This document shows, piece by piece, positions 36,443 through 49,342 of a DNA stretch of 49,342 bases. The stretch is from Chlorobiaceae bacterium (lineage in GTDB: Bacteria; Bacteroidota; Ignavibacteria; Ignavibacteriales; Ignavibacteriaceae): NCBI GenBank assembly GCA_013824085.1, contig PNNF01000006.1, forward strand, positions 45,001 through 94,342. Direction: 5' to 3'. Position 1 is the first letter of the stretch; each line of letters opens with the position of its first letter. The translations under genes were made by a program, and so were the position numbers. The notes under the pieces were generated by a model. The model ran no database searches. It was not told where the DNA came from and saw only the letters and a list, made by a program, of their open reading frames with translations.

Positions 36443-36916
36443 TCACTTCAATTCGCTTAATATTTGGACAGCTTTTTCAGCAGTCATTTTGGGAAAAACT
36501 TTTTCATTCACGAGTAACGCAGGTCCTTGATCACAAAGCCCTAAACAGCTCACATACTCGAGAGAAACTTTTTTATCTTTAGTAGTTTCACCGAATGAAA
36601 TTCCTAATTCTCTTTCGATTGCATTTGAAACAGATTCTTTATTTTGCATTTCGCAAGAGATTGTTTTACAAAGACGAATAATATTTCGTCCTTTTGCTTG
36701 AGTATTTAGGAATGAGTAAAATGTAACTAAGCTGTAAACTTCTACGGGATGAATATCCAAAAATCGGGCAACTTCTTGCTGAGCAAAATCTGAGATATGT
36801 TTGTACTTTCGTTGGATATCTTGGAGTATTGGAAGAAGAGACGATCGAGAAGTTCCATGCAAATTCACAAGTTGTTCTATCTCTTCAGTTAAAGAATTTT
36901 TTTCTAGGACAAGCAT
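36443..36916 (-). CDS. NuoE-like [2Fe-2S] hydrogenase subunit, second copy
   Basis: A 157-residue thioredoxin-fold protein of the complex I 24 kDa family. A helical start (QDIQRKYKHI) leads to the cluster ligands: Cys in LCKTISCEM (two Cys, four residues between) and in CLGLCDQGP. That is the C-x4-C...C-x3-C pattern of NuoE/HndA. It gives the trimer its peripheral [2Fe-2S] cluster next to the flavin. A ribosome site AGAGGA precedes the ATG. The receiver gene lies 15 bases upstream and the NuoF-like gene 7 bases downstream. Confidence 0.92.
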   Translation of the reverse strand: MLVLEKNSLTEEIEQLVNLHGTSRSSLLPILQDIQRKYKHISDFAQQEVARFLDIHPVEVYSLVTFYSFLNTQAKGRNIIRLCKTISCEMQNKESVSNAIERELGISFGETTKDKKVSLEYVSCLGLCDQGPALLVNEKVFPKMTAEKAVQILSELK

Positions 36917-41323: not shown

Positions 41324-43057
41324 TTATTTTTTCTTCTTCAACTGTTCCTTTCGATCGTAGTATTCAGTATGAAGAAGTTCGTGTGCGAGGTGTCCGTTTG
41401 GCTCACCAAGAAACTCTTTGTATAATTTGTTAATAGATTTATTTTCGTGAGATCTTCTTGTTTTACTATTTTCATCAAGTGTATAAAGAGCTTCAATCCG
41501 CTTCCTTATTTTTTCTGGTTTATGATGGATTGGTTGTCCTCCACCATTAATACAGCCACCCGGACAAGCCATCACTTCAATTAAATGATACTTCGATTCC
41601 CCTTTTTCAATTTGATCAAAAATTTTCGCGATGTGTCCAATTCCATTTACGACTGCGACATTTACTTCCAAATCGTTAATTTTTATCGATGCTTCTTTGA
41701 TACCTTCTTTACCACGAATTTCTTTCATCTCGAGATTTTCTAAATTGCTTCCCGTTAATTTGAAATATGCAGTTCTCAAAGCAGCTTCAATCACTCCACC
41801 AGAAGTTCCGAATAATGCCGCTGCGCCTGTTGATTCTCCCAACGGATCATCAAATTTATCTTCAGGTAAATCACCAAATTCAATTCCACTTACTTTGAAT
41901 AATCTTACCAATTCTCTTGATGTCAAAACTGCATCAACATCTTGATTAAAATTATTTGAAAGTTCAGGTCTGTGAGATTCAAATTTTTTGACAGTGCACG
42001 GCATAATTGAAACTACGAAAATATCTTTGGGATCTATTCCCATCTTCTTTGCATAATATGATTTAAGAATTGCGCCTTCCATTTCGTGAGGTGATTTGCA
42101 AGAAGAAACATGACCGAGTAAATTCGGTTTTGTTTGCTCAATATATTTAACCCAACCCGGACAGCAACTTGTGAACATTGGTAAAGTTTTATTTTCTGAC
42201 ACTCTGCTAATTAATTCAGTAGCTTCTTCAATTATTGTTAAATCTGCACCAAAGTTTGTATCGAATACTTTTTTAAATCCTATTCTTCTTAAGGCAGTAA
42301 CTAATTGTCCCGTCACATTTGAGCCAAGTGGTAAATTATATTCTTCCCCAATGGTTGCTCTAATTGCAGGTGCAACTTGAACGATAGTATATTTTTTCTT
42401 ATTGTTCAATGCGTTTGTTACTTCTTTCATTGAACTTTTTTCGCGAAGAGCGGCAGTTGGACAAACGAGAATACATTGACCACAAAGGATACAATCACTT
42501 ATGCTTAGTCCTTTATTAAATGGAGTTGTAACCGATGTTTGAAATCCTCTATTTGTAAAATCTATTGCACCAATTTTTTGAATCTCTTCACACACTCTTA
42601 CACATCTACCACAAAGAATACATTTTGCAGGATCTCTTTCCATAGAAGAACTTGAAATATCGATTGCATGTTTTTTACTTTCACCAGCAAAGCGATGTTC
42701 ACGAATACCATAAATTCCTGCAAATGTTTGAAGTTCACAATTCCCATTTCTAACACAAATTAAACAGTCTTGAGGATGATTTTCTACAAGCAATTCTATA
42801 ATTGTTTTTCTTGAAGTTCTAACTCTAGCAGAATTAGTGTCAACAACCATTCCATCAGCAACTGGATAAGCGCAAGCAGGAATAAGGGCTTTCGATCCTT
42901 CAACATCAACAGAACAGAGACGACATGCACCTGAAGGTAATAAATCTTTTATGTGACACAAAGTTGGAATTGAGATTCCGACAGATTTCGCAGCGTCGAG
43001 AATTGTCATTCCATTTTCAGCTTTTACTTTTATATTATTTATAGTTAATTCAATCAT
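41324..43057 (-). CDS. [FeFe]-hydrogenase catalytic subunit, first copy (HndD/HydA type)
   Basis: A 577-residue subunit with complete ligands. The N-terminal [2Fe-2S] domain has Cys34, 45, 48 and 62. The His-Cys3 domain has His94 with Cys98, 101 and 107. Two [4Fe-4S] motifs follow (Cys146/149/152/156 and 189/192/195/199). The H-cluster domain has L1 TSCCPGW (296-302), L2 MPCTVKKFE (352-360) and L3 MACPGGCINGGGQP (496-509). It should reversibly reduce protons. With the NuoF- and NuoE-like genes just upstream it forms a trimer like the NAD(P)-linked or electron-bifurcating HydABC/Hnd enzymes. GGAG precedes the ATG, 13 bases after the NuoF-like stop. Confidence 0.96.
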   Translation of the reverse strand: MIELTINNIKVKAENGMTILDAAKSVGISIPTLCHIKDLLPSGACRLCSVDVEGSKALIPACAYPVADGMVVDTNSARVRTSRKTIIELLVENHPQDCLICVRNGNCELQTFAGIYGIREHRFAGESKKHAIDISSSSMERDPAKCILCGRCVRVCEEIQKIGAIDFTNRGFQTSVTTPFNKGLSISDCILCGQCILVCPTAALREKSSMKEVTNALNNKKKYTIVQVAPAIRATIGEEYNLPLGSNVTGQLVTALRRIGFKKVFDTNFGADLTIIEEATELISRVSENKTLPMFTSCCPGWVKYIEQTKPNLLGHVSSCKSPHEMEGAILKSYYAKKMGIDPKDIFVVSIMPCTVKKFESHRPELSNNFNQDVDAVLTSRELVRLFKVSGIEFGDLPEDKFDDPLGESTGAAALFGTSGGVIEAALRTAYFKLTGSNLENLEMKEIRGKEGIKEASIKINDLEVNVAVVNGIGHIAKIFDQIEKGESKYHLIEVMACPGGCINGGGQPIHHKPEKIRKRIEALYTLDENSKTRRSHENKSINKLYKEFLGEPNGHLAHELLHTEYYDRKEQLKKKK

Positions 43058-43070
43058 TTAAATCTCCAAA

Positions 43071-45056
43071 TTAATTAACATTAATTGCTTTAAATCTGCA
43101 GGCTTCAACACACATTCCACACTTGATACACTTTTCTTCAATTACATAATGTGCTTTTCCTTTTTCACCAACAATCGCTTCTGATGAACATTTCCTAATG
43201 CAGATTCCGCAACCTGTACACAAACTATTATCTACTGTAAAAGTTAAGAGTGGCTTACAAACACCTGATGAACAGTGGCGTTCATAAAGATGCTCTTCAT
43301 ACTCTTCTCTAAAATATTGTAATCCTGAGAGAACGGGATTTGGAGCAGACTGACCTAATCCACAAAGTGAAGTATCTTGAATTACTTTAGCTAATCTGTT
43401 TAAATAAATTATTCCTTTGAATCTTTGTAGTTCTTCAATTTCATTTTCTTGTGATTTATAACTCTGCGGGATTCTTTCAACTATTTCAAGCATCCGTTTA
43501 GTGCCTTCGCGACAAGGAACACATTTGCCACAAGATTCACTTTGAATAAAAGTCAAAAAGAATTTTGCAACATCTACGATGCAAGTATCTTCATCCATAA
43601 CAACGAAGCCACCAGAGCCCATCATTGCACCAACCGCTTTGAGCGATTCATAATCAACTGGAGTGTCGATAACAGATTCAGGTAAACAGCCACCCGAAGG
43701 TCCACCAATTTGAACTGCTTTAAATTTTTTGCGATGAGGAATTCCACCACCGATATTAAATACAACATCATACAAAGTCATTCCCATCGGAACTTCAACC
43801 AAGCCAGTGTTTTCAATCTTTCCGCTAAGTGCAAAAACTTTTGTTCCTTTAGAAGTATTAGTTCCAATGCTTGAAAACCAATTGCTGCCTCTTACAATTA
43901 TTGCAGAGATGTTAGCAAAAGTTTCAACGTTGTTAATGATTGTTGGCTTTCCAAATAAACCTGAAACAACTGGGAACGGCGGTCTTGGTCTTGGCATTCC
44001 TCGCTTGCCTTCTATCGAAGCAATTAAAGCAGTCTCTTCGCCACAAACAAAAGCACCAGCACCTTTTTTAATTTTTAAATTTAGATTAAACCCACTGCCT
44101 AAAATATTTTGTCCGAGTAATCCGTATTCTTTACAAAGCTTAATTGCGTTGTCTAATCTTTCAATTGCAAGTGGATACTCAGCACGACAATAGATGTATC
44201 CTTCGTTAGCGCCAATTGCGTAAGCAGAGATTATCATTCCTTCAATAACTTTGAATGGATCACTCTCCAATATTGATCGATCCATAAACGCACCCGGGTC
44301 GCCTTCATCAGCGTTACAAATCACATATTTTTTTTCTGATTTTTGTTTGTGTGCGAACTCCCATTTTTTTCCAGTAGGAAATCCCGCTCCACCTCTGCCT
44401 CTTAATCCACTATCCAAAATTTCTTGAACTACATCTTTTGGACTCATCAATGTTAATATTTTATCGAATGCTCTAAATCCACCTCTTGCAATGTATGAAT
44501 CAATTGAGATAGGATCTACAATTCCACAATTATCCAAAACCAATTTCATTTGATGTTTGAAGAAAGGAATATTTTTTAGTGCGGGAATTTCGGCGTTTCC
44601 TTTTCCATGAGAGCCGAGTAATTTTTCACTAAAAATTTCTTTATCGACAATTGTTTTTTTAATAAACTTTGAGACGAGCTTAGGAGTGATTTCGTAATAA
44701 GAAATTCTTTCGCCATCAGGAAGTTTCACATCGACAATAACTTCTTTAGCACAAAATCCGATGCAACCCGTAGCTTCAATTTGGGCAGCGATATTTAATT
44801 TTTCTAATTCAAGTTTAATCTCTTCAGCAACTTTTTTTGCACCTGATGCTAATCCGCAAGTTCCCATTCCAATCCAAATTATTGGAACATTATGAGATTC
44901 ATAATTCAATTTACTGTTGAGAGATTTTATTTTTGTTTTACATTCTTCATCAGTGTGACAGAGAGGTCCGTCGATACAACATCTAACAAACATGCTGCAA
45001 GGATTAGTAACACTGTGCCAGCATTCAGTACAACATGCGTCAAGAAATTTATTCAT
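43071..45056 (-). CDS. NuoF-like hydrogenase flavoprotein, long form (HydB/HndC type)
   Basis: A 661-residue protein. The cysteine-rich start (CCTECWHSVTNPC, then CCIDGPLC, residues 8-33) may bind metal. A thioredoxin-like [2Fe-2S] domain follows (TCGLASG, ATGCIGFC; Cys67, 98, 102). The FMN/NAD(P)H core has GRGGAGFPTGKKW (220-232), NADEGDPGAFMDR (248-260) and ESCGKCVPCREG (507-518) with Cys565. Two ferredoxin motifs close the protein (Cys613/616/619/623 and Cys643/646/649/653). This matches the HydB/HndC architecture. The second copy at 35227 lacks both end domains. The gene overlaps the NuoE-like gene by 4 bases. The extra clusters are those linked to electron bifurcation in the Thermotoga-type enzyme, which I treat as inference here. 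Confidence 0.95.
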   Translation of the reverse strand: MNKFLDACCTECWHSVTNPCSMFVRCCIDGPLCHTDEECKTKIKSLNSKLNYESHNVPIIWIGMGTCGLASGAKKVAEEIKLELEKLNIAAQIEATGCIGFCAKEVIVDVKLPDGERISYYEITPKLVSKFIKKTIVDKEIFSEKLLGSHGKGNAEIPALKNIPFFKHQMKLVLDNCGIVDPISIDSYIARGGFRAFDKILTLMSPKDVVQEILDSGLRGRGGAGFPTGKKWEFAHKQKSEKKYVICNADEGDPGAFMDRSILESDPFKVIEGMIISAYAIGANEGYIYCRAEYPLAIERLDNAIKLCKEYGLLGQNILGSGFNLNLKIKKGAGAFVCGEETALIASIEGKRGMPRPRPPFPVVSGLFGKPTIINNVETFANISAIIVRGSNWFSSIGTNTSKGTKVFALSGKIENTGLVEVPMGMTLYDVVFNIGGGIPHRKKFKAVQIGGPSGGCLPESVIDTPVDYESLKAVGAMMGSGGFVVMDEDTCIVDVAKFFLTFIQSESCGKCVPCREGTKRMLEIVERIPQSYKSQENEIEELQRFKGIIYLNRLAKVIQDTSLCGLGQSAPNPVLSGLQYFREEYEEHLYERHCSSGVCKPLLTFTVDNSLCTGCGICIRKCSSEAIVGEKGKAHYVIEEKCIKCGMCVEACRFKAINVN

Positions 45057-45556
45057 AATACAACCTCTTGCTTTTGATTTGCAGCTTCATCTTTAGATTC
45101 AACTTTTGGCTTTCCCTGATATTTTTTAATTATTGATGGAATATCTTTTACTCCAATTCTACCATAATATTCTTCATTTACAGTTATAACAGGTGCAATA
45201 GAACAAGCTCCGATGCAATTAACTAATTCTAAAGTAAATTTTTTATCGCGCGTTGTTTGTCCAGCTTTAATTTTAAGTGAATCCTCAAGAGCAAATAACA
45301 GGTTTGCAGAATTTTTTACGTGACAAGCAGTTCCTCTACAAACTTTAATAACATTTGCTCCAAGCGGAGTCATTCGGAACATATTGTAAAAAGTAGCAAC
45401 ACCATAAATTCTGGCTACTGAAGAGCCAACAAATTCAGCTACTTCGTTTATTGCATCTTCGGGTAAATAGCCATAAACATCTTGCACTTCTTGTAATAGT
45501 GGAATCAGAGCACTTTTATCATTTTTGTTATAACGAAGAAAAATCTCATTATGCAT
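45053..45556 (-). CDS. NuoE-like [2Fe-2S] hydrogenase subunit, first copy (HydC/HndA type)
   Basis: A 167-residue subunit of the 24 kDa family. Ligands are CRGTACHV (C-x4-C) and CIGACSIAP (C-x3-C). A helical start (LLQEVQDVYGYLPEDAI) is typical. It opens the ten-gene hydrogenase operon and overlaps the NuoF-like gene by 4 bases. AAAAGGA lies before the ATG at 45556. A sigma-54-like -24/-12 element lies 34-50 bases upstream and a long inverted repeat about 110 bases upstream. It diverges from htrA. Confidence 0.94.
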   Translation of the reverse strand: MHNEIFLRYNKNDKSALIPLLQEVQDVYGYLPEDAINEVAEFVGSSVARIYGVATFYNMFRMTPLGANVIKVCRGTACHVKNSANLLFALEDSLKIKAGQTTRDKKFTLELVNCIGACSIAPVITVNEEYYGRIGVKDIPSIIKKYQGKPKVESKDEAANQKQEVVL

Positions 45557-49074: not shown

Positions 49075-49160
49075 GCCGGAGTGGCGGAATTGGCAGACGC
49101 GCTGGACTCAAAATCCAGTGAGGCTTACACCTCGTACCGGTTCGACTCCGGTCTTCGGTA
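49075..49160 (+). tRNA. tRNA-Leu (anticodon CAA)
   Basis: An 86-base class II tRNA. The acceptor stem GCCGGAG (49075-49081) pairs with CTTCGGT (49153-49159), with two wobble pairs, and A at 49160 is the discriminator. The anticodon stem CTGGA/TCCAG encloses the loop CTCAAAA, giving CAA (reads UUG). A long variable arm has GAGG/CCTC. The T arm is ACCGG-TTCGACT-CCGGT. CCA is not encoded. A run of nine T (49173-49181) follows. Confidence 0.96.
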
Positions 49161-49185
49161 CTAATAATAAAATTTTTTTTTCAAT

Positions 49186-49342
49186 CAGTGCGGAATTGGC
49201 AGATAAACTGGACATTCAAAATCCAAGTTTACCTACCTGAGTTTATAATGGTAGGTGAGGCTTACACCTCGTAACGGTTTACCTAACAGAGTCCTCGATG
49301 GTAGGTTCGACTTCGGTTTACCTAACAGAGCTTGCGATTGGA
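49186..49342 (+). pseudogene. decayed tRNA-Leu copy interrupted by hairpin insertions (runs to window edge)
   Basis: Starting 25 bases after the intact tRNA-Leu, the sequence follows it closely: GCGGAATTGGCAGA, CTGGAC, CAAAATCCA, the whole GTGAGGCTTACACCTCGTA arm, and TTCGACT. The 5' acceptor strand is gone and the anticodon loop has two extra bases. Three related units break it: 49226-49254 at the end of the anticodon stem, 49278-49305 before the T loop and 49317 onward after it, the last cut by the window edge. Confidence 0.75.
49227..49342 (+). repeat. three ~28-base palindromic units (TTTACCTA...TAGG) inside the tRNA-like sequence
   Basis: Unit 1 forms ACCTACC/GGTAGGT (49231-49237 with 49250-49256). 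Unit 2 forms ACCTA/TAGGT (49281-49285 with 49302-49306). Unit 3 begins identically to unit 2: CGGTTTACCTAACAGAG occurs at 49275-49291 and 49314-49330. Units 2 and 3 each follow a CGG, the two strands of the former T stem. Confidence 0.72.

Follow-up and report, generated by a model that had tools for sequence, protein, structure and literature searches.

A second tRNA-Leu(CAA) copy interrupted by small related units in an Ignavibacteriaceae draft genome: candidate debris of a tRNA-homing GIY-YIG cassette

An intact tRNA-Leu(CAA) gene of a Chlorobiaceae bacterium (GTDB family Ignavibacteriaceae) is followed by a second copy into which small related units are set, and we asked how such a copy could arise. 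The window, meaning the whole stretch of 49,342 nucleotides analysed here, ends where contig C6 of this 75-contig draft ends. The intact gene was placed by ARAGORN at 49075-49161 on the plus strand and is the sole tRNA of the window; the Rfam scan of the window also lists that tRNA only (RF00005, 54.2 bits) and no group I intron. After a gap of 24-28 bases, the second copy occupies 49190-49316, and three of its stem ends are interrupted by related units of ~28 bases. It corresponds to tRNA positions 10-78, up to the T stem, with 63 of 69 bases identical when two inserts are allowed. The alignment score was 34 as compared with a maximum of 10.0 in 59 shuffled regions, supporting the preliminary description, in which a second tRNA-Leu(CAA) copy had been recognised behind the intact gene. 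A part of the tRNA is duplicated at this locus, but not as an exact tRNA end.

The surplus copy lies on the plus strand throughout. Its first part runs from the D arm to the anticodon arm (49190-49227), the 5' acceptor strand being missing or degenerate, and is followed by hairpin unit 1 (u1; 49228-49255), which lies between the anticodon stem and the variable arm. The variable arm and the 5' side of the T stem (49256-49277; 96% identity over 25) are separated by unit 2 (u2; 49278-49305), at the border of T stem and T loop, from the T loop and the 3' side of the T stem (49306-49316). Unit 3 (u3; 49317-49342) is placed between the T stem and the 3' acceptor strand and runs into the contig end, so that the window does end inside the third unit, as had been stated. 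The tRNA parts flanking the units had been called nearly unchanged; this holds for the 63 of 69 identical bases, but the D arm is altered from GACGCG to GATAAA, and a 5' acceptor strand was not recognisable in the second copy. As a result of the D-arm change, TAAA, standing in place of CGCG, is complementary to the first bases of u1, TTTA, and pairing of the two would lengthen the anticodon stem. The lengthened anticodon arm covers 49204-49231 on the plus strand (direct reading included) and has one extra A in its 3' arm.

The three units are related, as claimed earlier. Compared without gaps, u1 and u2 agree at 21 of 28 positions and u2 and u3 at 20 of 26, and the best other placement in the window gave 19/28 for u1 and 18/28 for u2. 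Two of the units indeed share 17 identical bases, CGGTTTACCTAACAGAG, at 49275-49291 and 49314-49330. Their description as palindromic is convincing only for u1, which by itself forms a clear hairpin (16 of 300 dinucleotide shuffles fold as well); u2 and the cut u3 are weak hairpins when taken singly (133/300 and 227/300, respectively). The fold of the whole region 49075-49342, to which attention had also been drawn, was ordinary (z -1.30). Furthermore, a self-standing miniature element dispersed in this genome found no support, since no further copies above chance were detected. A tolerant search of the genome with TTTACCTAACAGAG (up to 2 mismatches) gave 24 matches as against 53 for the reversed control, and there was no excess in the window either (up to 3 mismatches; 7 matches versus 5.3 by chance). 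The general hairpin form TTTACCNAAC..GNTNGGT was no commoner than its reversed control, and the exact 14-mer that opens the unit is found in the genome only at u2 and u3. When the last 183 bases were searched against the own genome, no other contig shared this end, and the remaining matches besides the C6 tRNA had E values of at least 0.009. Three exact-pattern scans of viral contigs, with the unit or the lengthened anticodon arm, were without a match, and a viral origin was dropped.

Relatives were searched with the window tail, and degenerate tRNA-Leu copies beside an intact tRNA-Leu(CAA) were found in G027, G033 and G008. The sample of tRNA-Leu(CAA) loci consisted of 60 regions from the family search (80 genomes, among the matches listed), these three, and the window. 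ARAGORN reported tRNA-Leu(CAA) in 62 of the 64 regions, and the 60 of standard length were scanned within 900 bases for extra pieces. Extra tRNA-Leu pieces were present at 15 of the 60 scanned loci, in nine genera with the own genome included, in a sample that G027, G033 and G008 had entered because they matched the window tail. A 16th locus with extra pieces, in G016, was set aside, its duplication spanning a run of N. Two copies in G027 are near-complete and carry one insert each after the anticodon stem, and this insert, TTTACCAAAC..TTGGTTGG, resembles u1 of the window. The single-contig genome G019 has nine units of ~77 bases, in each of which the 5' part of the tRNA carries a palindrome within its D loop. 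In G527, G489 and G336, which belong to another family of the class, copies with inserts come after the intact tRNA-Leu(CAA), numbering six, two and two, respectively (by eye); tRNA position 10 is where their longest matches begin (five rows), just as for the window copy. The earlier idea of a tRNA copy turned into an array is borne out by the nine units of G019, the six copies of G527 (by eye), and three units at a tRNA-Gly locus of the own genome described below. Matches in G026, G005, G012 and G041 were rejected, as by eye they look like chance matches in coding genes.

A small GIY-YIG ORF was found close by at 7 of 62 tRNA-Leu(CAA) loci; such nuclease genes, which accompany remnants of this sort elsewhere, are absent from the preliminary description. 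At the window locus, none was seen in the 181 bases between the tRNA and the contig end. Two layouts were observed. The 5'-type has the order tRNA 5' part, GIY-YIG ORF, intact tRNA, and is represented by Leu(CAA) in G014 and G441, Ser(TGA) in G025 (three units of 323 bases) and Arg(CCT) in G019 (three units of ~350 bases). The 3'-type has the order intact tRNA, GIY-YIG ORF, tRNA 3' part, and is represented by Leu(CAA) in G437, G458 and G459, where the ORF lies between the intact tRNA and the spare, and in G019 by Leu(CAG) (five units of 450 bases) and Ser(TGA) (three of 306 bases). In several cases the anticodon arm forms the boundary of the tRNA piece, and the spare of G437, whose ORF matched PF01541 with an E value of 4.8e-14, is nearly whole. 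Outside the family, a GIY-YIG ORF follows the tRNA-Leu(CAA) copies in G336 and G527 (by eye); in G489 a nuclease match lies 115 bp from the intact tRNA, and no ORF was noticed after the copies.

Closeness between these nucleases and tRNA genes extends beyond tRNA-Leu(CAA). A family search with one GIY-YIG ORF from beside a tRNA-Leu gave matches in 63 of 80 genomes, some of them in tandem at exact spacing, and matches were obtained in 53 of 119 genomes drawn from the class. With the best match per genome taken for this single query, itself found beside tRNA-Leu, so that the samples favour its near relatives, a tRNA lay within 300 bp at 23 of 30 family loci (same strand in 23/23) and at 22 of the 30 class loci examined (same strand in 22/22). 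The control gave 0 of 18, being small and made of unrelated loci of the own genome, which are of another kind. The loci without a tRNA within 300 bp (7/30 in the family and 8/30 in the class) were in some cases, not all, at contig ends. In G019, the best 14 of 16 nuclease matches form five clusters, each directly beside a same-strand tRNA (by eye). In G001, the best 8 of 15 matches also form five clusters, of which two lie no more than 300 bp from a tRNA, another is ~1.6 kb off, and the remaining two have none near (likewise by eye).

We then compared the phylogeny of the nucleases with tRNA isotype and with host genus. The tree took in 57 of the 68 loci offered, those with a same-strand tRNA within 300 bp. 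Isotype changed 15 times over the 57 domains, as compared with a shuffled mean of 29.6 and a minimum of 24 (0 of 1000 shuffles as low), whereas host genus changed 46 times on the same tree as compared with 46.4 in shuffles (516 of 1000 as low), indicating that the tree tends to go with the isotype of the tRNA and not with the genus of the host. The clustering is imperfect: 15 changes stand against the least possible 10 for 11 labels, and the Leu and Ser nucleases are each scattered over several places in the tree. Homing to particular tRNA genes, with a shift from one to another now and then, would be expected to give a tree of this kind.

The surroundings of the other tRNA genes of the own genome (36 found in 28 stretches) were also surveyed. 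The tRNA-Asn(GTT) locus, on the minus strand at C61:3900-6400, reads 5' remnant, tRNA-Asn, GIY-YIG ORF, 3' remnant and a truncated second ORF. The GIY-YIG ORF matched PF01541 with an E value of 8e-17; the first nuclease query had given no match in the own genome at E 1e-6. The 5' remnant carries the palindrome ATCCCGATGAATCGGGAT, and the 3' remnant, which the alignment step did not list, carries TCCCGAAGGCTTTCGGGA (by eye). At the tRNA-Gly(GCC) locus (C2:24200-26900), three tandem 84-base units lie upstream of the gene, each a tRNA 5' part followed by a hairpin, and a scan of this stretch with the GIY-YIG profile gave no ORF. In total, such debris was found at 3 of the 37 tRNA genes of the genome (Leu(CAA), Asn and Gly). 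In addition, 5 of the 37 are within 200 bp of a contig end, on C6, C21, C25, C50 and C71 (expected 0.4, P 6e-5), which is weak evidence for hidden arrays, because at least two of the five cases are tRNA clusters cut by the end.

To describe the inserts themselves, intact tRNAs were aligned to their own surroundings, which yielded 97 remnant rows, 77 of them distinct. An insert of 14-90 bases, in many cases palindromic, was present in 58 of the 77 distinct remnants and none in the other 19. No tRNA base was skipped at any of the 66 listed inserts, a result that leans on the method, since the aligner penalises lost bases, and only clean inserts were kept for the site count. There are exceptions to clean insertion: a palindrome replaces tRNA bases in some remnants (G030, and tRNA-Asn and tRNA-Gly of the own genome). 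Most inserts have a single possible position, and this, together with the lack of skipped bases in 66 of 66, argues against duplicated target bases of the kind sought for a MITE, with bases shared by insert and flank being ambiguous in this test. The clean inserts amount to 25 distinct events of tRNA type and position in Leu, Ser, Arg, Glu, Gly and Val tRNAs; their sites are the D, anticodon and T loops and the stem ends, and a few lie inside stems. Open positions received 21 of the 25 under the most favourable placement (expected 54%, P 0.0015), but 18 of the 25 under the least favourable (P 0.054), so that the strict count is only suggestive of a preference. Precise insertion at tRNA loops and junctions, which had been proposed from the window alone, recurs in the remnants of relatives. 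CGG, put forward earlier as a possible target, is unsupported because the insert sites across tRNAs share a position in the tRNA fold and have no common trinucleotide (by eye). The 20-base palindrome CCTGCCTGCCGGCAGGCAGG and its variants are scattered in G001, G019 and G014, several of them apparently inside the loop of another palindrome (by eye), and at G001:C1:660300-661700 there is a tandem array of 121-base units with a nested palindrome in each and no tRNA reported by ARAGORN.

Taking these observations together, we consider it fairly likely that the second copy in the window was left behind by a selfish element living on tRNA genes, namely a tRNA-homing GIY-YIG cassette. The GIY-YIG nuclease of such a cassette, small, free-standing and specialised for a single tRNA type, would take the tRNA gene as its target and break it in or near the anticodon loop; the incoming cassette would then supply a replacement half, or a whole tRNA, which restores one intact gene and leaves the original piece over as a spare. 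A replacement half brought by the cassette would be the natural reading of the duplicated-half layout, which was itself observed in relatives and at the tRNA-Asn locus of the own genome; the window locus shows the spare alone. Subsequently, recombination would multiply spares and cassettes in tandem, and the spares would gain short palindromes, presumably by insertion, which would mostly occupy loops or the ends of stems and would as a rule leave all tRNA bases in place. For Leu(CAA) of the window, one spare with three units of a local family would be what is visible, and the cassette may lie beyond the contig end or may have been lost. By analogy with relatives, we would expect a similar structure beyond the end of contig C6. 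The weak hairpins of u2 and u3 and the strict site count advise caution as to whether the hairpins matter to the element or are passengers that it tolerates.

The best-surviving alternative, which we nevertheless regard as unlikely, is that the tRNA was plainly duplicated in tandem, that the copies neutrally gained small dispersed palindromes resembling REP sequences, and that the GIY-YIG genes are bystanders. One palindrome family of the remnants, CCTGNCTGCCGNCAGGCAGG, fits such a history, as it occurs in 12 of 16 genomes with 0 reversed-control matches in all 16, and some of its copies have no tRNA nearby. Copies are scattered through G001 and G014, 15 of the 18 distinct sites listed for G019 are inside tRNA debris, and the family was not found in the own genome. 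ARAGORN detected no tRNA in 20 regions with this palindrome from G001, G019 and G014; note that these had been picked away from tRNA arrays, so that the result shows only that the palindrome also occurs elsewhere. Spares without a GIY-YIG match in the tRNA-Leu(CAA) region examined, seen in G027, G033, G019, G457, G030, G020 and G443, are likewise in line with plain duplication. However, the closeness of nucleases to tRNA genes and the isotype tendency of their phylogeny speak against bystanders, the unit family of the window is not dispersed, and inserts favour open positions, for which the strict count is only suggestive.

It is less probable still that the copy is the scar of an attachment site, left after a prophage or an integrative and conjugative element with a tyrosine integrase had used tRNA-Leu(CAA) as attB and the duplicated part had decayed. 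tRNA genes are common targets of integration (PMC9897764, in the text accessible to us), and G436 and G430 have exact 63- and 62-base duplications of the tRNA-Leu(CAA) 3' part, separated from the intact gene by 5.4 and 2.0 kb, respectively. These duplications are, however, ungapped, free of inserts and limited to the 3' part, whereas the window copy, like those in G027, G336, G489 and G527, covers everything from the D stem to the T stem. Moreover, a scan of 10 window proteins, picked out of the 58 ORFs listed, found no integrase on a sequence that ends with the contig.

We also considered whether the copy with its hairpins could function as a structured RNA, such as a decoy that occupies an anticodon nuclease or a processing enzyme, and judge this very improbable. 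In its favour, the D-arm change from GACGCG to GATAAA with an insert opening in TTTA is also present in G027, G033, G437 and two copies of G028, the D-arm change with a lengthened anticodon stem recurs in G027, G033, G437, G028 and the own genome (G000), and the insert arms read ACCA..TGGT or ACCT..AGGT, a paired change (direct reading). A phylum-wide pattern search for the altered D arm (395 genomes, up to 2 mismatches) gave a match only in the own genome, from a draw without G027, G033, G008 and G437 and with G028, whose copy differs at more positions. Against a functional RNA, a 5' acceptor strand cannot be recognised in the window copy, whose region folds in an ordinary manner, the extent and content of the copies vary widely, and palindromes are able to keep pairing without selection on an RNA. 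An assembly artefact at the contig end is hardly credible, since, although the copy lies within the last 157 bases of the contig and an excess of the tRNA genes of this draft is near contig ends, similar structures exist in single-contig genomes (G019 and G025) and inside contigs of several genera.

The proposed tRNA-homing cassette can be compared with several known systems. SegB of phages T4 and T6 is a free-standing, intron-less GIY-YIG homing endonuclease often near tRNA genes (PMC13096335; PMC2988022, as far as their available text goes), and it drives tandem amplification of a segment with tRNA-Tyr and segB, with no favoured isotype according to its authors (PMC13096335, available in part). 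The family of the nuclease, its location near tRNA genes and the tandem amplification are thus alike. In contrast to the phage-borne SegB without a favoured isotype, the present nucleases are small proteins of bacterial chromosomes with an isotype-following tendency, and tRNA halves with inserted hairpins are not reported for SegB in the accessible parts of PMC13096335 and PMC2988022. Mobile ORFs of fungal mitochondria duplicate the end of a gene, as in atp6 of Allomyces and in atp6, atp9, cox2 and nad3 of Glomus, the atp9 ORF of Glomus being GIY-YIG; here, too, an endonuclease ORF in a gene brings a replacement end and the native end is left behind (PMC3630166, in the portion available). Whereas these ORFs target mitochondrial protein genes, the present case concerns bacterial tRNA genes, with 5' and 3' layouts and tandem arrays. 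On this comparison, the present case appears to resemble SegB and the fungal gene-end-duplicating ORFs combined, on bacterial tRNA genes and with hairpins added.

REP sequences or palindromic units and the hairpin elements of mitochondria are short palindromes, some of them dispersed, in non-coding DNA or RNA genes (PMC3733652; PMC2800124; PMC2884548, each in its accessible part). The window unit differs from them, as it was found in a single tRNA copy of the own genome, with no copy above chance elsewhere. The very small mobile repeats of cyanobacteria are another kind of small palindromic repeat, and group I introns in tRNA genes habitually occupy the anticodon loop. Such introns are parasites of tRNA genes, and some have a homing endonuclease (PMC3984707, from the text available). 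In the present case, by contrast, the tRNA gene appears to be restored by duplication and not by splicing. A literature search, made mostly outside subscription journals, retrieved no paper whose title or opening abstract lines report tRNA halves carrying hairpins together with GIY-YIG cassettes on bacterial chromosomes, and the accessible part of a review of the GIY-YIG superfamily (PMC1564403) contained no such link to tRNAs.

A broader and distinctly more speculative possibility, which we rate as doubtful, is that bacterial chromosomes hold a large family of isotype-specific GIY-YIG homing cassettes, and that hairpins, placed in the loops of stranded pieces by a loop-recognising mechanism, block both nuclease recognition and tRNA folding and leave only the restored tRNA functional. 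Should tRNA-homing cassettes of the kind proposed here exist, tiny homing nucleases that break a gene and return it repaired would be a third type of guest at tRNA genes, beside integrases and introns. They would account for surplus tRNA pieces beside tRNA genes and perhaps for contig breaks at tRNA genes in drafts of this kind. The remnants would also provide a many-times-repeated natural test of where short palindromes insert, a question unsettled for REP-like repeats, and the nucleases associated with Leu, Ser, Arg and Cys tRNAs would form a panel for studying how GIY-YIG specificity evolves.

Elsewhere in the window, adjoining genes at 41324-45556 encode the large subunit of an iron-only hydrogenase, a Nuo51-type flavoprotein and a 2Fe-2S thioredoxin-like protein, and a second 2Fe-2S thioredoxin-like gene is located at 36443-36916.
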